A stretch of 64,000 bases of DNA from Daphnia carinata (Eukaryota; Arthropoda; Branchiopoda; Diplostraca; Daphniidae): contig NC_081338.1 in the NCBI RefSeq assembly GCF_022539665.2, forward strand, positions 5,331,679-5,395,678, read 5' to 3'. Both the position numbers and the translations under genes were made by a program. Shown here piece after piece: positions 10,301 to 53,924 of the stretch. A model generated the notes under the pieces. The model made no database searches. It saw nothing but the letters and a program-made list of their open reading frames with translations, and was not told where the DNA came from. Every line of letters begins with the position of its first letter. Position 1 is the first letter of the stretch.

Positions 10301-13300
10301 GTTAAAAAAAAAAAAAACACAAGGTAAACACGTGTCTCGAATCACGTCAGGCAAAAAAAAACAAAAAAAAACAGGTATCCCGTTATGCAAATAGAGAGCA
10401 AGAAAAGAGAAAGAAATTGGGAAGGTGTTAAACGAAAAGAAGAGTAAAACTGGAGCAAATCCGGTCCGTCCAGATTTCTCGCAAACGACTTTCAATTTGT
10501 TGATTCAACTTGACCGTGCTAAACGAACCGGACCCACCCACACATCTCTTTTCTTGTTCTTTGTTGTCTGACACGCGAAATAGACATGAATTAATAGCAC
10601 AAAAAAAAACAAAAAACAAACCCGGCTTATTATGCCAACGTAAGCAAACCCCCTTCATCATATCATTAATATGGATCGATTTCATCCGAAACGCGAACAA
10701 ACCGGATTTATTTTTTTTTTTTAAAGCTTGGAGCTAAACCCAGACTACGGGATCCCGCAAATCGTTTGTGTACTTACTGTTTCTTACGTCTTTTTTTTTC
10801 CTTTTTTATTTTTAAAGGGGAAAAAAAAAATCATAGTGGCGACAGAAAAAAGAAAAGAGAGTCCAAGAGGCGGAGTGTCGAGTTTTCAAAAATGGCCGCA
10901 AGGACTTCCGCGTTGGTTTTGTGGGTACGCGGAGAAAGAGAGAGAAATGAAAAGAAAATATATATATATATATAAAGGGATGGCTTCTTAGGGCTCCCAA
11001 TTCCATCAGTTGCTCTCCGGCAGCCGTCACCTCCGCACGTCTTCCCCTTCCTAATTCTAGCCACCCTTGTTTTGGAATTGGTTTTGTTTTTTTTCTTGAA
11101 CTAAAGCCGCAAAGTGCGATTAAACTATTGTCTTCGGGGGAGAATGGTGTCGGATTTGATTCAACGGTGACCTTTCAAATCGATCAACGGATTAGTGCTC
11201 GCCTGTGTTCATCAGTGTTTGTTTTTTTTTTAGTGACGGTCTATAAATATAAGCAACAGGTGAGTTTAGGTTTGAAAAGAGCCGCTCTGTGTGTCTGTGC
11301 ATCGGTCAACTTTGAAATCGGGGGGAGAAAAAAAGTCCGAGGGGAGAGTGACCTCAATTTTTCGGTAGTCAAATTCAGAGTAATTTTTCTTCTATTCCCC
11401 TCCCATGTAAACCGACATCCATCAAGGAAGGGTAGAAAACAAGACAAAAGGTGTGCGTTTAAAACGATCGTTTTACCACGACAGGAAAAAAAAGTGAAAA
11501 TGGCCAGCAGGAAAAAAAAAAAATGCAATTTTCAATTAAGAACTGCGCGATAAATCAGCGTTAGAAAGAAAGCGTTTTTCTAAAATCTCACACAATCATG
11601 CTAATAACGTAGTCGCGGTCCGTTCAGTTTTCTTATGTCCAGTTGACCTCCTTTTTCTCCTTCTTCCTCAATCTTCATTTTGGGATGTTGTACACAAACG
11701 CATTTCATTTTCGACTTTGATCTCTACCCAACTGGAATTTGCAAATGTCTTTCAAATGACATGGCCATTAGGATTTTTTTGGCCCGTTTTTTTTTTTTTT
11801 GGTTCCTTATTTGTCCGTACCCATCCGCGGGGCTGTCGCATCTCCACCCACAAAACTGGGTCAGACAAATAGCTTTTCCCCCTTCTCTAACGGTGGAAAT
11901 GCCTTTTTCTTTTTAAAAGAAAAAAAAAAAACGGTTTTCTGATTATCGGAAAAAAAAACAAAAGCGGATCAGGATCTTGCCCTCATCCTGACCTGTTGAC
12001 CTAGTGACGTTCGTCTTCCGGGGCATTTCCGACTTTTAAAAACACGGAAATGATATTTGGTTTGTTTCGAAAACAGATCCTGTTCAAACTGTTGCCGGAG
12101 GCAGGACGTGATCTTAATACGACGTTGAAGAAATCAAGTGGAAAGGAAGAACTTTGTCAAGCAAATAAAAAAAAAAAAAGAGGAGAAATGAGTCTGATCG
12201 TGCCAGCCGCAACGGCCGCAGCCACGACAGCCACATTATGGTTCATTCCCATTCTGGTGGCAGCCGTTTCCTTTTATCAATACGACAAAACGGATCCGGA
12301 AGGACGGCCCAAAGACACCAAGGTAAATATCTAAACCGGAATCTCTTCCCGTACAAAATGAAATGGCTTTCTATTTTCTTTGCCAATAAACTCAAATGTG
12401 ACGTCATAGGTAAACATTACCCAATTCTTTTGGAAAGATGTTTCAAGAAAATGAAATAAAGAATGAAAATTGAATTAAAATTATTAGGTGATTTACAAGT
12501 ACTACGACTTTATCGTCATCGGGGCCGGATCGGCTGGGGCGGTCGTTGCTAACCGACTGAGCGAGCAACCCGACTGGAACGTCCTATTACTGGAAGCCGG
12601 TGGCGACGAGACGGAAACATCCGACGTGCCGGCCTTGGCCGCCTATTTGCAACTCTCTGAACTCGACTGGCAATACAAAACGGAACCTCAGCCAACTGCT
12701 TGTCTCGCCTTTAACGACAAAAGGTACACCAAACGCAATAACAGTAAAAAAAGAGCACAACAGGTGGCCAGCTGTGTTCAATACCCGTTTCATTTCGTTA
12801 AACAAAAAACTAGTTTTATATTTCGCACCAAAAAAAAAAAAAAAAAAAACTGGTTTCGCTGGGTCTCGCATTTCCAGTCTGTTTATCTACGCGACCTTGC
12901 GTTAACGGGTTGATTGTTTAAAACTAAAACGTCTATGTGTCATCAGGTGTTCCTGGCCGCGCGGTAAAGTACTCGGCGGCTCGTCGGTGCTCAACTACAT
13001 GTTATACGTTCGCGGGAACCGCCGAGATTACGACAGCTGGGCCCAAATGGGCAACTACGGCTGGAGCTACGACGACGTCCTGCCATATTTCATCAAATCG
13101 GAGGACAACCGAAATCCTTACCTGGCCCAGTCGCCCTATCACGGCGTCGGCGGTTACCTCACCGTTCAAGAGTCGCCTTACAAGACGCCTTTAGCTACTG
13201 CCTTTGTCGAAGGTGGTGTCGAATTAGGTAAACGTCAACCTCCTTACGCTTATCCACTGATAAAACATTATGTTTAATTATATACACAATAGGTTACGAA

Positions 13301-15962
13301 CATCAAGACGGAAACGGAGCCTACCAGACGGGATTCATGATCTCCCAGGGGACAATACGACGCGGATCGAGATGCTCGACATCAAAGGCATTCTTACGTC
13401 CGGTGCGGAAGCGCAAGAACCTGCACATCGCGATGCATTCGCACGTGATGCAAATCATGATCGACCCTGAAACGTATCAAGCTTACGCCGTCAAATTCGC
13501 CCGGAAGGGCAAGATCTACGTCATCCGGGCCACCAAGGAAATTGTCTTATCTGCCGGATCTGTCAACACGCCGCAATTGCTCATGTTGAGCGGTGTCGGG
13601 CCGGCTGAGCATTTGCAACAGCTCGGAATTCCCGTCATCTCCGATTTGAGAGTCGGCGACAACTTGCAGGACCATATCGCGGCCGGCGGAATGGTCTTTA
13701 CGCTGGAGCAGCCCGTCTCTTTGGTCCAGAGCCGCTTCGAGAATTTGCCCAGCATCTTGCGCTACGCCATGTTCGATTCGGGACCGTTGACGACGCTGGG
13801 TGGAGTCGAAGGCCTGGCCTGGGTCAACACCAAATACGCCAATCACAGCGACGACTGGCCCGACATCGAGTTCCATTTCGTTTCCGGCACGCCAGCCGCC
13901 GACGGAGGAGCTCAAATTCGTCGTGTCCACGGTGTCACTGATTTCGTCTGGGACAATTATTTCGCGCCAGTTGCCTACAGGGACACTTGGTCCGTCGTGC
14001 CCATGTTGCTGAGACCTCGATCGGTCGGCTACATCCGTTTGCAATCCGCCGATCCGTACGACAAACCGCTTATCTACCCAAACTACTTTGTCGACGACCA
14101 GGACGTCCGGGTTCTCGTCGAGGGCGTCAAAATCGGTTTGGCGCTGGGCGAGACGGCCGCCTTCAAGAAATTGGGCTCGAAATTCTGGGCGCAGCCTTTC
14201 CCCGGATGTGAGCATTTGCCCTTGTGGACGGACGAGTACTGGGCCTGTTTTGTGCGCCACTACTCGTCAACAATTTACCATCCGACTGGAACGGCGAAAA
14301 TGGGACCACCGGGCGACCCGACAGCTGTCGTCGATCCCGAGCTCAGAGTTTACGGCGTTCACAATTTGCGTGTCGTCGATTGCTCCATCATGCCCAACGT
14401 CCCATCGGGCAACACCAACGCCCCAGCGGTACGTTAAATAATTTTGTAAAAATTTAAGATTTCGAATTTACAAAAATTGAATTGATTTGCAGATTATGGT
14501 GGGAGAGAAAGGTGCCGATTTAATTAAATCATTCTGGTTAAATTACGCATCGAAGAAAAAGTAGGAATTTCAAAAAGGACCAACAACAACAAGGCGCATT
14601 TCCACAGATTTTTTCTCTCTTTCAACCTAGTCTCATCAACTTTGAAATCTCGTTGAAATCGGGACTCTATCTATTTCTCTATTATTTTATATCTCCCTGC
14701 GCATTTGTTAAAAGGATCGTCTGGAACATCCCCCCCCCAAAAAAAAACAAGAATGACTTGAGCACAAGAACAAAAGTGTGTGTGTGTGTGTGTGTCTACA
14801 AAGAAGAGAACAAATGTGAAAACTTGGCAAGTGAAATGTCGTAGAACCCTCGTTTTGGGTGTGTTTGTGAACCCTCAGGCTCGTCAAGTCACTTGGCTCA
14901 TCACCCATAACAAGAAATTTAACGAACAGAAAAACGAAAAAAAAAATCTGTTTGGCCCAACGTGTTTTTTTTATGTTTTTGACAAAATTTAGAAATCATC
15001 ATTCAATTTGTTTCGCCCCCCACTTTTTTTTTCGAAATAACACGAAACTTCATAAGAGTGCCATTAAGCGTCATCCATTTCACCCCACGTGTGTTTTGAT
15101 TTTCTATTTTAATTTTTTTTGCTTTTTCTCTTTACAAAAAAAATGTTAGTATGTATTAATTAATGAATTCTTTTCTTGGGAAGGTGTCAGTGTTTTCAAA
15201 ACAAAAAAAGGTGGGTTCCTTAAATGACCTTTTTTTTTAAACGTGTTCTTTCGAGCTGAGCTCGTGATTACACACGCATAAAAAAAGCACACACAGACGA
15301 AAAGAACAAAACAGTAATGTTGTCAATGATGTTCCAAAAAAAAATGAAAATGTCCTTCGTAAATTGTCAAAAAAATTAATACATTTTCGCCTTGTAAAAA
15401 AATGAGGCAAACGACCTATCGTTTCCTAACGAAAAGACTTGAAAATTCTAATTCTATTCAAATTATAGGGAATAATAAAAAAAAATGAGATAAAATAAAC
15501 AAACGGCTTGTACGGAAGCCAAACATGTTGTGTCTGCCCATCGCATTTGCAAGAGAAACGTCCTGCACTTGAATGTTTTCCTTGCCCCCTTGTTCCAACA
15601 ACGTCAGCCCCAAAAAAAAGGGGGAATGAAACCATGTATGGATAATAATAATCACAATCATATTCGTATGTCCTCCCTGTTCCCCCTAACCCCCTTCATC
15701 TAGGGCCCCACCCCATCGTTGCGATCAATAACACACTAGTCGCATACCCTATACACACAGCAAAGCGAATCTTAATTGCATAGCAAAAGAGATTCACACA
15801 ATTCAACATCAAATGAAATGTTACTACGCATCAATGTTAATTGAATATCACCTCAGGATAGGATTACGTAATTTCAAGGTGAAATAAACAATATAAAAGA
15901 AAAGGAAAGTTACCTGAGACGACCAAAGCTTCGTTCGGTCCAACAGTGTGGATGTTTCCCAT
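4314..15962 (-). CDS. Flot2: Flotillin-2 (reggie-1), lipid-raft scaffold protein
   Basis: Flotillin-2 is a peripheral membrane scaffold of lipid microdomains that acts in endocytosis, adhesion and signalling, usually as hetero-oligomers with flotillin-1. Ten coding exons join in frame to 424 residues (human about 428): 15962-15914, 6923-6829, 6765-6544, 6101-6002, 5942-5830, 5541-5422, 5346-5132, 4830-4647, 4558-4412, 4343-4314. The start [21 protein letters not shown] is the flotillin-2 N-terminus: Gly2 for myristoylation and the CC pair for palmitoylation are present, with Ile at position 4 where vertebrates have Cys. A PHB/SPFH domain follows (about residues 5-200: [21 protein letters not shown]), then the coiled flotillin domain with AE/EA repeats, ending near [18 protein letters not shown]. 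Intron 1 is about 9 kb and contains another gene on the opposite strand. Intron 8 (4559-4646) is nearly one third poly-T. Confidence 0.95.
10971..11263 (+). promoter_or_regulatory. Probable TATA/Inr core promoter and 5' UTR exon of the GMC oxidoreductase gene
   Basis: TATAAAG at 10971-10977, preceded by an (AT)n tract, is followed by an arthropod-type initiator TCAGTT at 11006-11011. A good splice donor (AACAG|GTGAGT) follows at about 11263. The next strong plus-strand feature is the start codon of the GMC gene at 12188, so this can be a noncoding first exon. The TATA-Inr distance of about 36 bp is slightly long. The link to the downstream gene is inferred. Confidence 0.35.
12188..14564 (+). 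CDS. GMC-family oxidoreductase (glucose dehydrogenase [FAD, quinone]-like)
   Basis: Glucose-methanol-choline oxidoreductases are FAD enzymes that oxidise sugars, alcohols or sterol-like substrates. In arthropods the group includes glucose dehydrogenase and expanded paralogues linked to cuticle, immunity and ecdysteroid metabolism; the substrate cannot be told here. Five exons, 12188-12322, 12488-12723, 12947-13227, 13293-14428 and 14493-14564, join to 619 residues. Residues 1-32 are a hydrophobic signal/anchor. The Rossmann FAD motif GAGSAG is at 57-62, followed by LLLEAGG (Glu81 for ribose binding). The first GMC signature ([20 protein letters not shown]), the second signature ([13 protein letters not shown]) and the C-terminal catalytic region (HPTGTAKMG, His547; then [20 protein letters not shown]) are all present, so the enzyme looks intact. 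The whole gene lies inside intron 1 of flotillin-2 on the other strand. A long minus-strand frame opposite exon 4 is a shadow. Confidence 0.93.
14776..14795 (+). repeat. (GT)10 microsatellite in the GMC gene 3' region
   Basis: Ten uninterrupted GT dinucleotides lie about 210 bp downstream of the GMC stop codon, possibly in its 3' UTR. Surrounding sequence has many A and T homopolymers. Confidence 0.8.
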
Positions 15963-26066: not shown

Positions 26067-27687
26067 TTAAGCAGGCTGATGATTTCCTCCGAAAGCATCT
26101 ACTGAAACGCCCGAAAAGCCTATAATTTCACTGTAGAACTCGGCGTTGCGGACTTTGTATCTTACATTGGAATGTGCTTGATGTCTAGATGTTCGAGTTG
26201 TGCCAGAAGTGCCACCAGCTCTACCGTTTGCTGCTCCCACCGCGCGATTATTTGCCGAAAAACTGGTCTGGGCAACGTCGTTGAGCGATAACTCGCGGAA
26301 GGTCCGGAGCATCCGGCCATTTCTTCGGTTCGTATTGCCTGCGTTATTGGCAACATTATTAGACGATAAAAATCGTGTACAAGTTTGTGGATCGCAAATT
26401 CGCAGGGCGCAACAAGCTGCCGTTGGATAAACAGTCATGCCGCGCGAATGGTGGCCGCTGGGCAGTCCGCCTGGCCAACTTTTGCTGCTACATTTCGAAA
26501 TGCCGCCGCTAGGATGGGGACGGATGTCGGAACCGATTTCAACGTGACGTGAAAAGCAAAAATTCAACAGGTAATTTTTGAGCGAATTTCGAAAATGTGG
26601 ATGACAGAAACTAAAAACTAACGGATCAATCAGAACTGCTGTTTTTGCGAAATAGGCTGTTATGGCGGTAGCCAAGGGCGACGGTGGGGAATCGTGTGGT
26701 CCAAACTGGCCTATGAGAGTAACAACTGAGTAAGGAGTCCAGGCAGTGAGATAAATGATGATGAGCGTGACGACGATTTGAGCCGTTCTGATTTCCGTTT
26801 GTCGCCGTAATTTGAGCAAGACGCTGTTGTGTGAATTTGTGCAAACCAATTGCCGGGCCTGTGATAAAACGGTCGTCAAAATGCGGCCGTAGCTGATGAA
26901 GATGAGCAAAACGGGCAGAAAAAATCCAGCGGTAAGTAGTAAAATATAGTAGGCTCTATTAGATATTGTTCTCGTCTTGTAATCCCAGGAGCAAGTGGTC
27001 AGCAATCCTTCCGGAACGTACGATGACCATCCGAAGATAGGCAAACTCACCAGGATGGTACAATGCAACCAGATGAAGCCACACACTGTTTTGGCCTGAA
27101 ATCGACTCGCTTTCCAGTGGCTGTCTGTCAAACTGATCACGAGGCATCTTTCACATGCGATGGCACTAAATGTCAATATGGAAACGAGGCCAAAACAGGT
27201 AATTCCCATTGCATACAGTTTACATCCAAGACTGCCGAATGCCCAACGCCCATTAAAATTTGAATAGGAAGCCATCGAATGAAGAGCTGATGCTGCCATG
27301 TCGCTTAAAGCCAAATTAATGATGAATGTATTGGCTGGAGGGGATCTTAGCCTTTTGAATCTGCAATTAAAAATCAACAAGTTAGAATCCTTTGATTATT
27401 TCATTGTCTACTGAACACTTTTGCCTTTTCAATTTATAGATTTAGCACCTCGAGAAGATGAAGAGGACGGTTCCGTTGTCCGCTAGCCCCACGATGCCTA
27501 TAGTTGAAACAATCAAGCCCATAATGACGAAGGCGTTTCGAGGGACCTGATTCAAAAACACCAACTGTTCCTTGCTCCAGAACGCATCCTCATTAGTGTT
27601 GGATAACAACAGTGAATCGTTGAAATCGATTTTCGTCGAGTTTCCCATACCGTCGATGGTATTGGCGACTGTCCTGCTAAAATTCAT
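26067..27687 (-). CDS. Opsin, r-opsin/arthropsin-like G-protein-coupled receptor
   Basis: Two coding exons, 27687-27449 and 27360-26067, join in frame to 510 residues. The seven-helix pattern is complete. The retinal-binding lysine is present in helix 7 (AYFAKTAVLIDPLVF), which separates opsins from other rhodopsin-family receptors. The disulphide cysteines are seen at LGCKLYAM and in extracellular loop 2. That loop (GWSSYVPEGLLTTCSWDY) matches rhabdomeric opsins and melanopsin, including the Glu of the PEG motif. The helix 3 motif is CERC instead of DRY, the helix 7 NPxxY is DPLVF, and the r-opsin HPK tripeptide is HPH. The about 180-residue C-terminal tail is long and rich in Ser, Arg, Ala and Asn. 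The single intron falls after helix 1. This fits the divergent arthropsin group described from crustaceans, but subgroup placement needs a tree. The N-terminus carries NxS/T glycosylation sites. Confidence 0.85.
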
Positions 27688-41042: not shown

Positions 41043-44000
41043 TTATTTATCTAATCTCATCGAACGTCGGACCGACGTTCGGGATTTGATTACAGGATCT
41101 CGTTTTGGAAGACTTTTGGGTGGTGGACGAGATGCAGGAGCAAAACGTAATTCTTCTTTACTCAATAAAATGAAATCAATTAAATACTGATGAGTACGAC
41201 ATCAAAATTAACACATACCTGTTACTTCCACTTCTTCCGCCTTCTTTCTCCTCTTATTTCGAACCACTCGCTTTGTTTGAATCGTCTTTTGACTTGATTC
41301 ATTCGATTCTTGATTCTCTTCTTCATCTTCACCTTCTTCAGTTGGTTGAGACGGGCCAGCCTGATCTGAGCTTTCTTCAGACGCATCTTCCCGGCCCCGT
41401 TTCATATTCGATGCCACTGTTTCAGCGGCTGCAGCAGCTTCCTCTGAAATGATGTCCAGTTCAGAAGTTCGTCCAGCACCTGCACGGCGCAAATTATAAC
41501 GGCCAGATGCAACAGACGATGGTCTGCTGAGAGGTTTCTTCTGTTTTTTGACTCCACTGGTGCTATCGCCTTGCAAACTGATTTCGTCTAGACTGATAGA
41601 CTCATCCGAGTCGACTGGGGCTACAGAAAGATCCTGATAAGACGATCCGGATTGCATTTTGGGTTGCAATTCAAATGGAAGTGCAAACTCTGTTTCTTTC
41701 TCTTCCTCGAGAGGGAACAAATTGAGGGCTACTGATTTCTGCCCGCTTCTTAATAACGATTTAGCCGGTGTGTGTTTCCTCCTGCTGGGCGTTAATTCTC
41801 GGCTGGTACTCACTGGAGGTGGCTCTGACGTCACACTATTGGTCGGTGAATTATCTCGTGAAACATTAGACGATTTTCGGCCGGATCTTCGCAGAGGTGA
41901 GGCTGGCAGGAGATCGGGTCCTCCCGGACCAGAACTATGTCTTCGGATGCGTCCAACAAGACTAGCTAAAAGTGCATCTGTCGAGGCTGTCGGTTCTGGC
42001 GTTCGATCACGTAATGCTGATATCCGGGCGGATCGTCGTATCGGTGTTCCAGTTACACTACTTCTTCCCGAATATGAACTCTCCGCTGGACTGACTTCAC
42101 AACTCGGTGGGGCTGAAGGCTGATCGCCCTTCGCTTCAGAGCGTCTTCTGCTAGCCTTGGGAGGCGTAGTTGGTAAGGTCGATGGAAGAACTTCTTCTTT
42201 GACTGGAGTAGTTGGACCTTCCATGACTGAAGTGGACAAACGGCTGGATCGACGTCGTGTAACAACCTGTGAGGTACTAGAAGTGGAAGAGCTATGCCTC
42301 CTCGTTCTCCTCTTAATATTACTCTCTATCATGTCCTCATACTTTTGCGGAGGTTCCGATGTGATGCTTTCAGGTGAACGATCCCTATCTTCTCGAGTTT
42401 CCCAGACACTTCGTCTCGATGTAAAGGGAAGTGGAACATGTGAGCCCATTATCAGCGATTTGGAACGTCCTTTTTGCTGTACTGGACGAGGCAATTCCAA
42501 CTCTACCGTGTCGTCATCAGAGGAAGATGGCGGTTCTAATGTGTTTCCTTTTTCTGCTTCATCATGCTCCTTGGCCGCAACCACATTGTCCAAATCAACA
42601 CTAGTGTCTCCAGCCTTATCATCCATTTCTGTGTTTCCCTCATCTTCAGTTTCCTTTTCTTGATCTTCCTCTTCTTCTCCGACATCATCCAGCGATGGAC
42701 TTTTCCCTGTTTTAACAAGCATCGTTGATTGATCCATTGAACGTTCCTCAACAATCGTCGACAGATCCACTTGTGACGTGATAACAGCCGCGTCGGGAAT
42801 GAAAGGCACTTCAAATTTCTCGTGGGCTTCCAAAATGTTCCTTAATTCCACATTTTCATCGGTCGTTGAACCTTCGGTATGATTTGATTCGTCAGAATGT
42901 TCAGCTTCGATTCCACCCTCGTCAGTTTCCACTTTACGTTCGGGTTCGACCACCTCCTCAACTGAACTGGACGTTCGTTCAGTTTCAGCTGCAGGAGCTT
43001 CCACATCATCTTGGCCATCTGATGAAGCTTCGCTATCGGTCAAATGAAGTCGACTCTACAAGATAAAGAAACGAAAGTTAATGGGAAATCCTTTCAAATC
43101 TAACTGAATTAATACCTTAAAGACGCTACTGCGCTGGGCATTGGGTTTCGGTTGTTCTTCTTCCTCAACATCTTTGAAATGAACATTCTGCGATTCGGCA
43201 GTCGGTGACATTTCAGGCTCAATGACTTCATCTTCTTCTGAAACACCTTCAGAACCGGCCAGTGAAGACATCGAGAACCGACGCAAACAGGAAGGACGAA
43301 CTGTTGAAATAGCCTTTGGTGTTTCTGTAAGTTTCAATTCGAAATCCTCCTCTTCTTCTTCTGCCTCGTGTTCATCCACTTTCTCGCAACCCTCTTCGTC
43401 TTCAGACCCCACATCAGCAGCTACAGGACTATGTGGTGAATCAATTGGATCTGGACTTGTTTCTTCTATTGGTTGAACATCCAATTCTTTTGGTTCATCT
43501 TCAACGGTCTCTCCATCATCCATATCAGGTTCAATTTGGCTGTAGCCGCTAGCTTCAGCTGGGCTTTGTTGGCTATCTTCCTCCTCCATTTGGGTAGGTT
43601 CAGGTTGGACAGCGACTGCTTCTGTTACATCAAAAACACTTTCAAAATCTGGTTCTATTTCACTGTAGCCACTAACACGAGGTTTGCGCAATGCAGCAGC
43701 TTCTTGCAATTGAAGATTGTCCTCTGAATCATTGGCTTCTTCTTCTGATGATGAAGAAGATGATGACATGGTGAACCTCTGCTTGTAAATGCTGGTAGAT
43801 ATAGTTGTCTGATGACCCACGGCTGAACGCACAAGACTTTGATGGGTTTCTGAAGAAGAAGAAGAATCTTCAAGATTTTCCTTCTTTGTTTGCAAATCTT
43901 CTTGTTCATCAACCGATCCTTCCATACTTTGCGAATATTCAGAGACTTCATCTTCTTCATCATAATCGATCGTTGGTACGAATGATTCTTCTTGTAAAAT

Positions 44001-47000
44001 ATCTACAGTTCTTTCACCAGTTTCGGTTGTTTGTGATACTTGTTCAGGCACTTTAGTTTCCGCTTCATCTTCTACTGGTTCAGAGATCGGCTCAACTTGA
44101 ACATCCGGCACAGCTGAAACCTGAGGTTTATCATCTTCTTCCACTGATTTTTCAGATTCAACTTCGGATTCTTCTTCCACTGGTCTACTGACGATGGGCT
44201 TCACTTCATTCTCTTCTTCTTCTTCTACAACTTGGTCTTCGTCTTCAACTTCTTCTTCATCCAAGACTTGATCATCTTCTTTAATCTCTTCTTCTTCTTC
44301 GATGACTTCGATATCGTCTTTGACTTCTTCAATTTCTTCTTGAGCTACTCCATGATCTTCTTCCTCTTCTTCCAGTTCTTCTTCTTCCGGTTCTTCCTCC
44401 TCCTCAACTTCATCGTAATCTCCTTCCAATTCTTCTTCCTCCTCTTTCTCAACTGATTTACTGTCAACTCCTTCAGCCTCATCGCTACTAGAATCGAGAC
44501 ATACAATGTCACTTTCATCATTCGATGATTCATCCATGTTTTGACTCTGTTGCACCCCCGGAATGACGAGCGTTGGTTGTTCTTTTTCGACAACGCGTTC
44601 CAGAACAGCTAACGTCGGTGCCTCTTCTACGTCATCATCCGGCAAAGCAGACTCGGATACAATGATGGGATGGGTAGTTGTGCTTTCTATGTTTGTTAGT
44701 TCCATGCCGCAACTCGAAATTTCTTCACTGGACATCACCTTCTCAACAGGCAAATCTATGTTGGTTAGTTCCATGCCACAACATGAAATTTCTTCATCGG
44801 GGATCACCTTCTCAACAGGCAAAGGACCTGGAAGTTCTTCTTGCACCTGTTTTTCTTCAACTTGTGCAACCTCTGAAACAAAAGCAGATTCGCTATCATC
44901 TTCAAAACTGAGAAACTGGGAATCCTCTCCCACTACAAGACTATGCTGATTAGAGTGCTGGGCATCCGTCACGACTTCCATGTCATCGTCTTCCTGTACT
45001 GAACAGACGGCCGCAATTTCTGAAATGTCCAGTGGAGGTGAGGCAGCATCTTGTGGTTGCGGCAGACGGAAACGTAATTGTTTGGCCGATGCTGTTGAAA
45101 CTTCCATTTCCGTCTCTGATTCTGACGGATCCGCTTCGCTTGCAGGTCGTCCGGCTGTCTCAAACGCAGAAAAGTTCATGAAACGCCGCATCTTATCTTT
45201 CAAAATGGATGAGGGTCGACTAGAAATGCTGCCATCTGCTTCAGTAATCGATGGATGGCACGGCCTGGATCGCCGGATAGGTGGAGTTTGTAAAACTGAA
45301 ACAACTTCTGCATCCGTTTTCATAGCTGCAATAGCTTTAGGAAATAAAGAGAATCGTGGCCGTTTTCCTTGTCTCGATTGACTTGCATCCGCATCTTGTT
45401 CCGTGACGGAAGTTATGTCCATTGAATCTGGAGCGCCTCTAGGCGAAGGAAAGCACAACGACATGCCTAAGGTTATGTTGCGCTGAGCTGGTTGTACAAT
45501 GTTGCATAAAAATGGAGTCGTTTCCGGCTGATTCTCATCCGGATACAGTACAGCCTCTGGATCGTCCAATTTGCGTTTCCTAGGCCTCAATGGCGTTTGA
45601 ACTTCTTCGTGAAGCTTCTGTTCAATTAGCCAAGTGGCTCGTGATTGTTCAATCACCGTGCGGAAGAAATTGGAACCGCTTGATTGGATTTTGGACGTAG
45701 CCGGCAACACAGAAACGGAAAGTGGCCGCGGGAATTTCAAACCACCAGAAGATGTCGATGAAGTCGGAGGACGAGAATTAGCGATGGCAGCTAATTTGCA
45801 TGTGATGGGCGGCAGGGCACCAATCAGCGTCTGCATCAACATTTCACGACGGTTGAATCGTTCCCTGGAAATGGTGTCACGGGCCGGCCACATCTGATTC
45901 AAACGTTGACTGTAGGCAATGGCATCCGGATATTTACAGCGTTGAATATAAAAGAGGAGCAAAGCTTCTTGCAGGTCGATGTTCCTGCTTTGTTTCAAGA
46001 AGTTAGTCACGTGATCTTCCTCCTCCTCAGACAATGGCAAAGTTAACAGAACGCTGACTTTGCGCATTTCCTGACATCCGTTGAGCAAATGCTGCATCAA
46101 TTCGACGCTGTTACGCTGATTGCGATTGCGTCTGATGTAACTCAGTGCATCACTGATCAAACCATTGGCGATCAGGATCGTCAGATGGAGCTGGATGTCT
46201 TCCAGCTCGGGACAGACAGGCCGTCGCAACGTAGCGTATTTTAACGCGTGCTTATGCTTGTCCTGGTAGAGAAACGCACGAAGGATAGCTCTCTGCTGGG
46301 CATTGGTAATGTCCATCGTGTGGACCAATGGATCAAGTAGCATTCCAAGAGCGTCGTCGAAATTTTGATGATCCAAATGCCAGAACGCCTGCGTCACTTT
46401 GATCATGCTGGGCTTAAGTGAATAGGTAGACGGAAAGGTCACTAGATGTTGCAAAATGTTTCCGTAATGAGCGTGACGGCCATAGATCCAAGTCAAATCC
46501 ATAAAGACGTATTGAACTAGACGATGTTTCGTAACATCGTCTACGTCCGGCCTTAAATATGCTGATAGCAAAGCATACAATGATGGAGGTGGATAAGTTT
46601 GAATGTCCCTTTGGTTTGTTGTGCCTTTTTCTTCTGCCCATAACTCCACGACAGATGCAGGGACCAGTTGGTCAATCAAAAGAACTTCAGCTGCTTTGAC
46701 AGAGGAGCTGAGACTCTCAATCTCAGATTTTCTATTCCGGTAGAATTGTTCCAGTTGACGGCGAGGATAGGGAAGTGAACTACATCCTTCAACGTCATCG
46801 ACGCTATCTTCGTCGATTTCCGGCAGGAGCCCGCCATGAAGGAACCACAGGACCGTCTCCAAATGCAAACTGAGCAGGTAAATGGCCCGCGATTTGTCCC
46901 GGAGTTTATCGTTGATTCCGGAATTCAACGATCGAATTCGTTTGTCCATGACGTCATAGAGGACGGACAAATTATTAAATTGATGCGTCACGTGATAGAG

Positions 47001-49189
47001 TTGACTGTACATCTGTCGCTCCATTTCTTGGCACGAGTGATCGAAAAGGATGTTGCAAAGATTTTCACGCAGTGATTTCAAGTTGACTACTTGCTGCCAT
47101 GCCCATTTTTCAACAAAGTTTAAATTGGCTCCTTCATCCTTGATGCAAGAAATCAGGAAAGACCTCGAATTGTTCTCTAGCCCAACATTCAACAAGGACT
47201 CTGCCATTTGGGCCGCGTGCGGTGCAATGATCTCGGTATGCGTGAGTCCGGCTTTCATTGCCTATTACAAACAAATCACGTCAATGAAAACTCAAAAAAA
47301 AAATCAATAAAAAATGTTACCTGAACGTAAAATCGGTGTGGATGATTAAGAACTTGAGATCCAGCTTGAGACAGTTTTTGAAGAAGAAGCGACTGCATGC
47401 CCAAGAACATAACACTTTCCGCTTCTTGGGGACACACGACCATTGCGCGGAAGCTTAATGCCGAAGGATAAAAAAAGGCTTCGGCCGGTGTAGTTGATGA
47501 GCGATGAAAGACGGAGAGTGTGGCCGGTTGAATCCAAACTTGCTGTACCGATCGATTGCGTCCAACAGATTGGCTCTGGTAAAATCCCAAAAAGGGACAC
47601 ACTCTGGATGTGTCATCGAAAATCCATCGCGGAGGCATTTGGGCCTGGTACCATTGGTTCAGGTCAAAAATGGCCAAGTAAATTCCGTTTTTCCAGCTCA
47701 TCGCAAAGTAACATAGGCCATAGCAACCTGTCGCTCTCGTGTTGCCATTAGATGAGGCTAGGCTTTGACATCTCAACAATTCGACATCTTCTCCATTCGA
47801 TTGGTCGCCTACCTAAAATGAAAAGGAAATTGTATTTTACATTTAACGTAATCATAAAGATATTCAACCCACGATCAAGGGTCCGAAGTTAAGATCCAAT
47901 CTTAGCGTTATGTACTGCAGATCTTCGTATAAAATACCGCCATCTGGGATGGCCTCTTTGCGGACGTACGTCAACGAGTAAAGCAACGCGTAAGGTGCTG
48001 CATGAGAATCCCACGATTTCTGCGCTACGACACTCAGGTAACAAAAATGTCGTGGATCATCTTCTGGCTCCAGAAACACAAAATCCAGAATTTGATCGAG
48101 CTTCTCGCCATTACAGCCTAAAATTGAATCTTTAAGTTGATTTATTGAACAACAGATTTTCAGGTCAAGTACCTGTAGCGAAACCACTAAAATCTAATTC
48201 CAATGACTTGAGGCTGAACATTTGGAAAGCTCCTTGAGTATTATAGCCAACACATAGGGTCTGATTCTGTGGTATGTATTTAACCACTGTTGCACTGACT
48301 TCTTCTTGTCGAACACTCAGCACTGCATTGGATTCATGCATTGACTCCAGAACAAATCGACCAGCCCTGAAATAATCAAAAAATTCCATTGCATAAACAA
48401 TAAAAGCTTAAAGGGATGTAGATGTGTTTACCTGTACATAGAGTCATTTAGAGGTATGACCAAAACCACTGGAGGTTTGAAAAACACTCGTTTTTGTAAA
48501 ATGTCATCTGTAGTGACATAGTGCACAATATTCAAATCAAGCTGATGTGTTCCTGCGCTAAATTTGAAATGCTGGTCGACAGCCAGTAGCATAACATGGC
48601 CTTCTTCTGTGCCCAGTGCAAAAAGAAAGCAGTCAGACTTCAAAAATTGCCTGTAACTTGCATTTGGAATTTCCATGCTACAAACACAAGTAACCTATTA
48701 TAGAAATTTCAAAAGAAGAATTTTGAATTATACTTTTGAATTGTATCAAAGTAACCATACCTTGTGAGACACACTCCAAGAATTTAATATCATAGATGTG
48801 ACATAATTATAAAGAGCCACCGCTCCAGAGCCGGTGTCAGAACTCAAGCCTACTAGGGCAAGGGTTTCATTTGGGATTGGAGCTACACAAGTAATTGAAA
48901 AGTCCTGTCCTTGCTGGCAAGAGAAATGTCTGCTTTGCACTCCGCAGTGGGTTGTTGACACAACATCGAGTCTATCTCCAGAAGCAAACCATGCTATGTT
49001 GGACTCTGGGGGGAAAAACAAACATACAAGAGTTGTACTTTTGCTTCCATATCATGTTTATGGGTATGATAAAACCTTACCGGTAATAGATCCATGGATT
49101 ATGTTTTGACGCTCTTGATCGGCCCCATCCACTAGTGAAGATGTGTATTTTACAGCGGACTTCACACTGACGGGCTCAATCCATTCCAT
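41043..49189 (-). CDS. AHCTF1: ELYS / AHCTF1 nucleoporin (MEL-28 homologue)
   Basis: ELYS binds chromatin at the end of mitosis and recruits the Nup107-160 complex, seeding nuclear pore assembly. Nine coding exons join in frame to about 2,547 residues: 49189-49081, 49005-48761, 48694-48432, 48366-48173, 48117-47869, 47808-47321, 47261-43116, 43055-41219, 41155-41043. The first about 516 residues form the N-terminal beta-propeller region (for example SWDSHAAPYALLYSLTY). Then comes the conserved alpha-helical ELYS domain (about 540-900: LHLETVLWFLHGGLLPE, DLTWIYGRHAHYGNILQHLV). The remainder is disordered: a long Glu/Asp-rich stretch encoded near 44200-44460, many Ser/Thr-Pro sites, and basic chromatin-binding patches near the C-terminus (VVRNKRRKKAEE, RTSVRRSMRLDK). 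It contains an in-frame 69-bp tandem duplication at about 44695-44832. The single 4.1-kb exon holds most of the helical domain and tail. Confidence 0.92.
44695..44832 (-). repeat. In-frame 69-bp tandem duplication within ELYS
   Basis: Two adjacent copies with period 69 bases encode LPVEKV-P/S-DEEIS-CGMELTNI-like 23-residue units (copy boundaries at 44695 and 44764 for GTTAGTTCCATGCC). A handful of substitutions separate the copies, so the duplication is fairly young. It lies in the disordered acidic part of the protein. Confidence 0.85.
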
Positions 49190-50119
49190 GATCGCAAATT
49201 AATTTTCTAAAAGCCTTGATATCATTCAAAGTAGCTCTGATAACAAATAATAAGTAACCAATGATGGAACTCGTGATTCAAAATGCCGACAATTACATTT
49301 GGTATGACGGTAGATCATACGTTTTTTTCCCACGTTTTGATCTTCTGTGTACTGATTTTCCACAAGGCGCCAATGGCAATTAATGAACATAGTGCTGAAA
49401 TATTGAAAAGACAAGTTGCTCTAGTGCTAAAAATTCTGCTATCTGGTAGACTGATAATTGATAACCAAAATGAAATTTTAAGTTTATCATCTCAAATATC
49501 CTAGTATTTAACCAAATTTACCGAATAGTTTAAAAAATAGGATATTGGACATTTCCTTTATTTTGTTTGCAATTTGATCTGGGACCCAGCAATGCTACCG
49601 GAAGCTATTGGCGCCAAATACGTAAAATGTTGTTTTTCTCACTCACATGGTTTCCTCAGACCAATTGCCAAAACAAAAGCGTGGCGTTAGCAACATGTTA
49701 CTTGTCATTATCTAAGACCCATGGCGACTACATCTATTTTAATAGAATAAGATAATGAATGTAGACCTATAGTGGAATAATGTTGGTAGGTGGAGTGTCC
49801 ACTCGTTTTAGCCACCTTTGGCGTACCATTCACCGGAGCTCTTCAAACAGTTTTGCCACTGCATTTAATTTTTAACCACCATTAACTATTCTTTTTGCCA
49901 CAACTAATCTACATCTGTAAATTTACGTACTTTTAATCGTTTACGATTAGATGCTTCACTTTGAAATCCATCCAAAAACGTGGGTCACCACCACATGGCA
50001 CACCGAAAGAGAGAGGAGCACGTAACTTGTTGGCAGCAGACGAATAAATTGAAAACATGCTACAATTCAAAATCCAGAAAAGATAAAAACGGTTTTCTTT
50101 TTATTTTAGTTAATTAACG
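49190..50119. other. Divergent intergenic region between ELYS and the CRLF3-like gene
   Basis: About 930 bp separate the two start codons, which face away from each other. Promoters of both genes are expected here. I see no TATA box at a convincing place and no coding exon. Confidence 0.5.
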
Positions 50120-52496
50120 ATGGATACATCACATTTTAGTTTCCAAGCTGATCATGACGCGAGGGAAAATGAAACAAATTTGAATGCTGAATTATCGAAT
50201 GTAATTTCTTCCAACAATGTTACCTCATTTGACAATATTACATTTTTTCTTGCCACACATAAATATCCAAATGGCCTGAACTTGAACCAAAAACGCACGC
50301 TTAGAAAGGCTGCCACGAACTTCTCGCTTGTCGGTAATTTCCCGCTACCTTAAAAATCTTGGTCTGAACTTTCAAGTACATTATTATTGTTTTAGACAAC
50401 AAGCTATACTATATCGGAAAGAATAAAAAAGATAAAAGACTTGTGATCTTGGATGAGGATGGGAAGAAACAAGTCTTCGAAGATTGCCATGGAAGCTCTT
50501 TGGAAGGTGGACATGGAGGACAGAAGAAGACTCTTGAAAAAATAGAAAGTCTCTTCTTTTGGAGTGGAATGGTTAAAGACGTCATTCGTTGGGTAATCAA
50601 CATTTTCTGTTTGATTGAATCTTACTCTACAGCTATTGTATCACAGGTTACAGCATGTGAAATTTGTGGCCACAAGGAAAAGAGATGTAATCAATTGTAT
50701 AAAAAAACAAAAACAGTAGACTTTGCCAATGACACAAGCCAGTCTTCAGATACATGTCAAGATGTCATAACTAGTGAAAATCCAACCAGTGGTCTTTATG
50801 AAACAGCCAAATATAGCATGGAACAGATTGAGCTATGCCTAAAAAAAATCCAGCACTACGAAATGGAAGTTATGAACATGTCCAAGATAGCAGAAGTTGA
50901 AATTGATGATATACTTGATTTCCTTCTTGCTAAAATTCTGAAACTCATTAGCCGGAAAAAACGCGAAATGAAAATTCAAGTATTTATAAATATTCCATAG
51001 AAGCATGATTTGTTGCATTCCAAAATAATGTTAATATCTCTTATGCTACATTAGGTTGAAGAACAGAGAATTAAGTCATTAAATTTACTGAAAACATTTC
51101 GTAAGCAATTCGAAGGAAGATCGAAGACTATAAGAAAGTTGATTTTGGATGTAGAAAAAACCACGAAAGGTTATCAGCTGTCGTTCTCGCCAAAAAATAA
51201 ATCACTAACTGCGAGGTACTTTAATAAAGCATTCGTCAAGCATCCAACACTCGAAAATTTAAAATTTTATATGCCAACAGCTTACCGGAGATGCCAAAAA
51301 TAGAAGAAATTGGTGGAATATGGAGCGTGTTTAATACCGAAGAAGCTCACGAAGAAATTGGAAAGATTATTAAAAAATGTGGCAATATATGCGAGCAGCC
51401 TCCGTACATAGTATCAAACATATTGCAATTACCAGCTTCCCTTCGCATCCAAATCAGCCATACCGCGTGTGGCAATCAGCTGGTGAGAATCTTTTCTTAA
51501 TATACACATCGTACTGCATAAACTAAATTCGATGAACATTTCAGTTATTTAGAGATGCTTACGACATGGGAAGCTTTACGCCAACAAGGAGTCTAAGGCT
51601 CTATCACTGTATCCACAATCCTGCTGCCCATACAGACAATGAGACAGTTTTCCATGAAAATCAAATTCAGATACTGAAAGATTTCAGTAAAGAAGATTAC
51701 GTTTACCTTAACAGTCTTGAACCGCATCAGGTACCCCTAGAAAACTGCCTTAATAAAACAACTAAAAAATTATTTTATCAAATTAGGTTTATGCCATCTA
51801 CATTAGTTATAGAGAGGAAGGCTCCTCCGATTGGTCTCCCTGGAGCTTCCCTATTCTAGCCAGCACTTCAATCCCAGGATATTGTTGGGAAACAATAAAT
51901 AGTGACTGGAACCTCTCTTCTGATCTACGGGTTGCTTCTAAGATTGTCAACTCTCCAACTCCGTTGTACTCGTCTAGTGCCCAATATTTTCCAGGGTGCC
52001 GCATCAGCTTGACCGTAACTTTCCTTTTGCTTAAATTCAACAGTTTAAAATGAAAATTACCGAGTAGTCTAAAAATTTAGTTGGAGAAGATACCCGACAT
52101 CGTAAACGCCGATGATGGATTCGCTCTGATTGATCAGTGGGTACAAGGAGGCACTCTCAATCAAGAGGGAACGTTCTTTGTGAATGTAGAAGGTAATGGA
52201 TAACATTCTACAGTATCAATTTTGTTTCTTTAACACTGTTTTTCTTTTAATTAGGGAAAGTGTTCATCAATGGTAAATTGTGTGATGCTATCACCCCTCT
52301 TTCGCTTGTTAATACCACTGTGACCTTCGACTGCCATCCAACTATTGAAACCATTCCCGATGGTCTGAGGATGCAAATAACGGTGGATTGTCACAACGAA
52401 TCTCACCTAGTTTACTGGAGTGTTCGGAACCAAATTACTAACGTCTACTTTGGTGTACGTTTCCATCAGCCAGGTGCACGGGTGAAGATTGGATGA
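50120..52496 (+). CDS. CRLF3-like protein with N-terminal integrase H2C2 zinc-binding domain (chimera)
   Basis: Nine exons join in frame to 624 residues: 50120-50333, 50396-50592, 50647-50979, 51055-51215, 51281-51482, 51545-51730, 51787-52014, 52081-52192, 52255-52496. Residues about 45-146 are an integrase-type H2C2 zinc-binding domain: NQKRTLRKAATNF and KLYYIGK lead into His103, His111 (GGHGGQKKTLEKI), the FFWSGMVKDVIRWV helix and Cys141/Cys144 (ACEICG). No DDE catalytic core follows. From about 175 the protein matches cytokine receptor-like factor 3: coiled coil (about 175-300), a fibronectin III domain with the cytokine-receptor WSPWS motif at 447-451, and a C-terminal SPRY-like domain (VFINGK..., ending VYFGVRFHQPGARVKIG). 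Exon 3 encodes both the second zinc-ligand pair and the start of the coiled coil, so the fusion is within one exon. Family CRLF3 is about 440 residues. In insects CRLF3 is reported as a neuroprotective receptor; the effect of the extra domain is unknown. Confidence 0.85.
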
Positions 52497-52647
52497 CTGG
52501 AACTTCTGTCATCTAATAACGTGCCCAATTGCATTAACTAAAGGGGGAAAAAAAGAATCAGTCGTTTCACTGTTCATTTTATCAAAAAACAATAAATTTG
52601 TCATAATCGTAGTATTAAAAAATGGATATTATTTGTGTTCGCATCCT

Positions 52648-53384
52648 TCATCCTGAGCAGCCACGGCAACCACAATGAACACACTCGACAATTTTGCCCT
52701 AAAACGAACGTTTAATTAGTTAATAAATAATAATAAACAAAGATGTTATGCTACCTCTTCCATTTTGGCTTTAGGCACACGACATATGCAGTTGGTACCA
52801 AAATTTGTATCTCTGGTTTGAATGCACCTGAGGCAGCACAAGTTCTCATACCCTTGCTTCTTCCATTTTGCAATTAGACTCTGATCAGCAATATGCTCTT
52901 TCAAGCAATAGTCGTATAACTCTATGAAATTATTCATAACGTTACGACCACTTTCAATAACGAAAAAAATCGATATGCAAATCGGTATTTACCTCGTGAA
53001 ATAGCTTTTCGTTTGTAAAAGAGATCAAAGATGTAACGCGAACGCTGGTGATGGATTTTAAAGATGGGCCACAATGCTTCAACTTTTCGTTTTCCTTCAT
53101 GGGGATCCGTTTCAGCTTCAAAGAAAAAGAGAAAAGGGGTTTTTAAATTTCATGAACATACAATAGCTGAAAATAATTAGGTCAACTCAGAACAATATGG
53201 ATATCCTTTTCTATAACAAAGTAATCAACATACTAATTTTATATTTAAAAATTTTCAACCTGTTAAGCAGCAAAGAAATGCCTGTCTTACCTTCTCGCAT
53301 TTTTGCTTCCAATTCTTCTAGTGTAGGTTCAATCAACTCCCAGCCTTCTGGAGGCGGCTTTTTACTTCTTTTGACTTTTGGCAT
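52648..53384 (-). CDS. BUD31: BUD31 (G10) spliceosome protein
   Basis: BUD31 is a small, extremely conserved nuclear protein of the activated spliceosome. Four exons, 53384-53291, 53115-52993, 52921-52755 and 52698-52648, join to exactly 144 residues, the usual length. It starts [21 protein letters not shown], continues with [20 protein letters not shown], and ends in the Cys-rich zinc-binding part ([20 protein letters not shown] then [12 protein letters not shown]). All conserved cysteines are present. It is convergent with the CRLF3-like gene (151 bp between stops) and divergent from ATP6AP1. Confidence 0.97.
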
Positions 53385-53924
53385 TGTGGTAAACTAGATT
53401 AAAAATAAAAAACAAAATGAAAATGAATGATGATTTCAGCAGTTGAATACTTCAGGCACAATGGCAAACCATTACAGGGTTACAACAAAAATATATGATA
53501 CGACCATGGTATAACAGTAGTCATAAGCTACCGTAATGGGGAAAATCATACCTTTGTATTACTGGTACAACTTAAAATTCTCCTTAGTCTTTTATAGGCT
53601 GGGAGAAATGATTGCGGAGATGAGCAAGCAGACTGCTCTTATTCGAAACGAAAACGCTTTCTGTCGTCAAAGGCACACAGGTGCCAGGCACCAATAATAC
53701 AATGAAACACAAATATCATTAAATAACACATATGTATTCCATTTTATTGTATAATAAAGATTTAAAAATTTATTAAAAGTAATATTTAATTTATGTACCG
53801 TCAAACACGAAATATTTTGTAAAAGCAGTGTTGCTCGGTCATCACATGATTGGCCCTAGATGACAGCCCCGTGACTAGTCCAAAACTTGACAAGCCGACG
53901 GTCGCCGAAGACATTCGCTTGAAA

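Follow-up and report, generated by a model that had tools for sequence, protein, structure and literature searches.

Integrase-type zinc fingers in host proteins are already known (Spt10, ZBTB11, NYNRIN, GIN1), as are Ginger1-derived host genes in vertebrates and malacostracans. The Spt10 finger is said, in a 2006 title by Mendiratta, to be homologous to foamy virus integrase. In both ZBTB11 and Spt10 an HHCC finger is attached to other host domains without an integrase core, and both proteins are transcription regulators, whereas CRLF3 is not so described in the accessible part of its literature (PMC12026705), which places it in the cytoplasm or at the membrane and considers that it may act in cytokine signalling, in microtubule stability or in stress signalling. 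GIN1 and GIN2 are host genes derived from Ginger1 (PMC2836005, PMC3424704). Imagin, also Ginger1-derived, is found in malacostracan crustaceans, mostly within an intron of MMUT, and carries the YPYY motif (PMC12863088). The GIN genes and decapod Imagin retain the integrase-core region, which amphipod Imagin has lost. Domesticated mobile-element domains have been documented mainly in vertebrates, and crustacean cases are few (PMC12863088).

Within a 64,000-nucleotide stretch of the Daphnia carinata genome, referred to here as the window, a single gene joins an integrase-type zinc-binding module to CRLF3. As in GIN1, GIN2 and Imagin, an HHCC finger lies in an intron-bearing host gene, but here the core is missing and the module is joined to an unrelated host protein; in lacking the core while being attached to other host domains, the finger is more like those of ZBTB11 and Spt10. 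The part that follows the module resembles ordinary CRLF3, with an FN3 domain carrying WSXWS and then a SPRY-like domain, and its length of about 436 residues compares with a median of 438 for CRLF3 (PMC6797617), whereas the Daphnia protein has about 185 extra N-terminal residues that include the integrase HHCC finger. In the literature searched, CRLF3 is new as a fusion partner of such a finger. Our main reading, to which we give a probability of roughly 0.7, is that CRLF3 captured a fragment of a Ginger1/GIN-type transposase, and that the product was retained as a host gene with a function of the kind attributed to other HHCC domains.

Rebuilt from the window, the gene spans 50120-52496 on the forward strand, and its nine exons encode 624 residues and a stop codon in a single frame from the ATG at 50120. 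All eight introns are bordered by GT...AG, their lengths range from 54 to 75 bases, and the predicted protein is 100% identical to the public record named 'cytokine receptor-like factor 3 [Daphnia carinata]' (P0001 of our protein search). Exon 1 (50120..50333) codes for the N-terminal tail and the first half of a YPYY-like segment (Tyr49, Pro50), and exon 2 (50396..50592) for Tyr76-Tyr77, His103, His111 and the Integrase_H2C2 helix pattern GGHGGQKKTLEKIESLFFW. Exon 3 (50647..50979, residues 138-248) runs without a stop from Cys141-x2-Cys144 through the linker into the coiled coil, and the join is therefore not between two predicted genes. The first-pass annotation had proposed one in-frame chain of nine exons, a join inside exon 3 and the fusion of an integrase-type zinc-binding domain with CRLF3 in a single gene, all of which our results support, the last also through the presence of the same fusion in three Daphnia records. 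It is very improbable that gene prediction took exons 1 and 2 from another transcript or merged two neighbouring genes. The case is built on sequence and gene models, and a prediction bias may be common to the models of all three species; against this stand the continuity of exon 3, the sizes of introns 1 and 2 (62 and 54 bases), which leave little room for a separate promoter, and the fact that the same structure is on record three times. A scan of 49200-52650 for bacterial-type signals, which is not meaningful for an animal gene, returned 10 promoter-like sites against 10.8 expected and 3 terminator-like sites against 2.0.

The module matches Pfam Integrase_H2C2 (PF17921) at residues 93-146 with 64.6 bits and an E-value of 8.7e-18, the curated cut-off being 25.5. 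Its four proposed zinc ligands, His103, His111, Cys141 and Cys144, are at the positions given for them initially, and their spacing of H-x7-H-x29-C-x2-C falls inside the canonical HHCC range of HX3-7H(X23-32)CX2C (PMC5384227); ZBTB11 differs in having H-x6-H. Among solved structures, Ty3 is the closest in sequence (E 6e-4), followed by the PFV integrase (E 0.016). The catalytic core had been described as absent, and this holds: the fused protein has no match to the integrase core (rve) in Pfam at E<=10, while for 11 of the 16 relatives scanned from the same genome this library does detect rve next to the zinc domain. Since only the zinc-finger end is present, without the DDE core, the module is at most a fragment and not a transposase. 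Both structure models were of low confidence, and fold searches gave no clear match. On its sequence, the module is a putative zinc-binding domain of mobile-element origin with intact ligands.

The remainder of the protein is encoded by exons 4 to 9, all on the forward strand. Exon 4 (51055..51215) codes for the remaining coiled coil, for which a helix at residues 195-285 appears only in a low-confidence structure model, and exon 5 (51281..51482) for the pre-FN3 region (SLPEMP...), which is CRLF3-like by its likeness to an approximate human CRLF3 sequence. Exon 6 (51545..51730) covers the FN3 region, exon 7 (51787..52014) its end, with WSPWS from residue 447, and the beginning of the SPRY-like domain, exon 8 (52081..52192) more of that domain, and exon 9 (52255..52496) its end and the stop codon. 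The WSPWS form of the WSXWS motif is invariant in the three species. A C-terminal query of 323 residues matches crystallised CRLF3 (6rpx_A) over query residues 116-321 (206 residues, E 8.2e-17), and this match covers the FN3 and SPRY-like parts. The human CRLF3 sequence, used as an approximate query, aligns to residues 291-623 (z 33) and, in the pre-FN3 region, with z 6.7; the coiled-coil part showed no detectable similarity to it (z 0.7).

Of the architecture first proposed, a coiled coil followed by FN3 with WSPWS and a SPRY-like end, the FN3 and SPRY-like parts are borne out by the motif at 447 and by 6rpx, but not by Pfam, as neither fn3 nor SPRY gave a match at E<=10 in the 624-residue protein with our local copy, in which Integrase_H2C2 did. 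Such Pfam matches may not be a defining feature of CRLF3, and for the identification as CRLF3 we rely on the name of the public record and on the PDB sequence match. The label 'receptor-like' likewise stands only in part: the protein is a CRLF3, but the word 'receptor' may mislead, given that hydropathy indicated no membrane-spanning stretch (highest 19-residue Kyte-Doolittle mean 1.2), and the fused protein is, on this basis, probably intracellular. In the database, P0001-P0003 all list PF27985 and P0002 also lists PF27984, neither of which our local Pfam copy reports for the window protein.

Upstream of the finger, Y49-P50 and Y76-Y77 fit, by letters and place only, the YPYY motif (Y/F-P-Y/F-Y/F), which, in Ginger1 transposases and in a few groups of Gypsy elements, occupies about 40 residues that directly precede the finger (PMC2836005). 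This YPYY-like segment points to a Ginger1/GIN-type source and not to the retroelement-type integrases that are common in this genome, where integrase zinc domains number at least 150 (150 of 952 candidates were scored, and 150/150 were over the cut-off). The 138 other matches of the module in the assembly are only 24-42% identical to it, with the top-scoring one at 36%. From 36 own-genome stretches that were aligned, 17 non-redundant relatives were obtained, 16 of which were scanned with Pfam. All 17 have H-x6-H where the module has H-x7-H, none has two aromatics at the YY columns, and Y/F-P is found at the YP columns in none of the 11 with letters there, the other 6 being gapped. In 7/16 the zinc domain is preceded by a reverse-transcriptase RNase H domain, in 11/16 it is followed by an integrase core (9 over the cut-off), and the presence of at least one of the two in 13/16 indicates that most of these relatives are of retroelement type. 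In a tree with them, the module sits on a long branch (about 2 substitutions per site) and has no firm neighbour. Among viral contigs, 353 pattern stretches were searched and yielded no relatives.

The N-terminus of human GIN1, used as an approximate query, scores 209 against the module, where the highest-scoring of the 17 relatives reaches 143, and the alignment with this approximate GIN1 sequence runs from before YP through the last Cys. Searched against the whole assembly, the same approximate sequence has its best match at the CRLF3 locus (57.8 bits), with the next at 54.2, a small margin. As the strongest sign of GIN ancestry comes from this approximate sequence, kinship with GIN is to be taken as a lead.

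An origin from a Gypsy/Ty3-type retroelement integrase, and not from a Ginger1/GIN-type DNA transposon, has several points in its favor. Integrase zinc domains abound in the genome and are often preceded by RNase H, Ty3 is the nearest solved relative of the module and also has H-x7-H in the printed alignment, and YPYY is carried by some Gypsy groups (Athila/Tat, Cer1; PMC2836005). We nevertheless consider such an origin unlikely, in view of the low identity of the other matches in the assembly, the uniform H-x6-H of the relatives together with their lack of the YPYY residues wherever letters align, and the higher score of the approximate GIN1 sequence. The two introns within the module also speak against it, though they could have been gained later. 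The source initially suggested, a retroelement integrase of Gypsy/GIN type, is accordingly kept as to the integrase-type zinc domain and judged less likely as to the Gypsy-type retroelement, and by sequence comparison the module likely derives from a Ginger1/GIN-type transposase.

No second copy of either the module or the CRLF3 body was found in the 108-Mb assembly, and the 920 bases upstream of the gene match only themselves there. Searches for the fusion in other animals were made in a database of about 5.8 billion public proteins, in which matching needs shared five-residue words and similar length. With the whole protein, 3 of 7996 scored candidates matched at E<=0.001: P0001, P0002 from D. 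sinensis (86% identical) and P0003 from D. magna (LOC116931701, 87%). These three records are 624 to 626 residues long, and PF17921 is listed for all of them. With the module as query, 3/81 candidates matched, from D. carinata, D. sinensis and D. magna only, and with the CRLF3 body (E<=10) there were 4 matches among 2590 candidates, namely P0001-P0003 and P0004. The search of other CRLF3 proteins for the same N-terminus thus gave the fused form in these three species only; ordinary vertebrate CRLF3 was likewise not returned, so that non-detection in D. pulex or other animals does not equal absence. P0004 is a 243-residue C-terminal fragment that stops short of the module and is identical to residues 378-625 of the D. 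magna protein except in one altered stretch, between the start of FN3 and WSPWS, where a short unrelated segment replaces about 33 D. magna residues; it also extends 15 residues beyond the usual C-terminal end. The altered stretch and the extension mean that variant transcripts exist or that the assembly is faulty, and P0004 may be a product of alternative splicing or of misassembly.

D. carinata, D. magna and D. sinensis all belong to Ctenodaphnia (PMC9820869), and the split of the Daphnia subgenera has been dated to 131 to 145 million years (PMC9820869, PMC3123605). Since the module search returned these three species only, the fusion, assuming a single origin, probably dates back at least to their common ancestor, and it may be older. 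In a survey of CRLF3 in 293 species, 34 of them invertebrates, the longest protein printed is that of D. magna with 625 aa (PMC6797617), and its position as the maximum speaks against a widespread fused form.

In an alignment of the three species, 89 of the 100 positions of the module (residues 47-146) are invariant, against 357/436 in the CRLF3 body (Fisher p 0.10), 34/42 in the linker (p 0.28) and 424/524 in the whole remaining protein (p 0.06), with segment limits that we set ourselves and with the weak power of three species that show few changes. The N-terminal tail and hinge have fewer invariant positions (35/57, p 8e-5), a comparison that was picked post hoc, after the counts. All four zinc ligands, as well as Y49, P50, Y76 and Y77, are unchanged. 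By these counts the module and the CRLF3 body appear to be conserved to much the same degree, and the module behaves in the manner of a constrained domain. The added exons could instead be a passenger that is transcribed and tolerated but has no function itself; such an explanation gains from the small number of species, from conservation that is not significantly above that of the body or the linker, and from the module having no known partner. The invariance of the four ligands and of most module positions, exceeding that of the tail and hinge in the post hoc test, makes it quite unlikely in our judgment.

According to our main reading, a common ancestor of D. magna, D. sinensis and D. carinata would have gained a new 5' part of CRLF3 from a Ginger1/GIN-type transposase gene, a fragment comprising the YPYY-like segment and the HHCC finger without the DDE core. 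The resulting fusion would then have been retained as a host gene, which is single-copy in the genome examined. The module would fold round one zinc ion and, lying next to the coiled coil of CRLF3, may serve for oligomerisation, docking or nucleic-acid binding like the HHCC domains of integrases, Spt10 and ZBTB11; the consequence would be an altered assembly state, different partners or a different location of the intracellular CRLF3 scaffold. HHCC domains have been reported to aid integrase multimerisation, and ZBTB11 ligand mutants lose activity (PMC5384227). In the same report, deletion of the whole N-terminus of ZBTB11 did not abolish rescue, which cautions against presuming an essential role for the Daphnia module. 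Among possible functions we prefer oligomerisation or protein docking, with nucleic-acid binding second, and the module has probably been domesticated, adding an oligomerising or docking surface to intracellular CRLF3. A bolder idea, that the captured finger turned an ancient cytoplasmic CRLF3 scaffold into a DNA-/RNA-binding or transposon-sensing regulator in Ctenodaphnia, seems doubtful to us; if true, it would be a new function of CRLF3 in one water-flea lineage.

The fusion had been put forward as one not known to be described, and in the literature searched we found no description of a CRLF3-integrase fusion, even though the architecture can already be seen in public protein records. Among the matches listed, PMC6797617 alone names both CRLF3 and Daphnia. 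A 2026 PNAS screen for arthropod HGT chimeras (PMC13389597) excluded metazoan transposable elements, and neither 'CRLF3' nor 'integrase' occurs in its main text. The fusion places a mobile-element module on CRLF3, a conserved and poorly understood protein that has been linked to neuroprotection and blood-cell formation, and the fused gene is recorded in D. magna, a laboratory species.

Several other genes can be recognized in the window. A gene for the splicing factor BUD31 (52746-53393, reverse strand, its start at 53393 read by eye) lies tail-to-tail with the CRLF3 gene and matches Pfam BUD31 at 52746-52988 (E 1.4e-28). On the same strand, a 1401-residue open frame at 43059-47261 contains an ELYS nuclear-pore assembly domain (E 2.7e-43), and a 442-residue open frame at 26070-27395 codes for a rhodopsin-family receptor (7tm_1, E 1.3e-36). 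A GMC oxidoreductase is encoded on the forward strand at 13232-14434 (GMC_oxred_C E 1.2e-39, GMC_oxred_N E 4.1e-24), and an open frame at 12488 looks, by eye, like the start of this gene.
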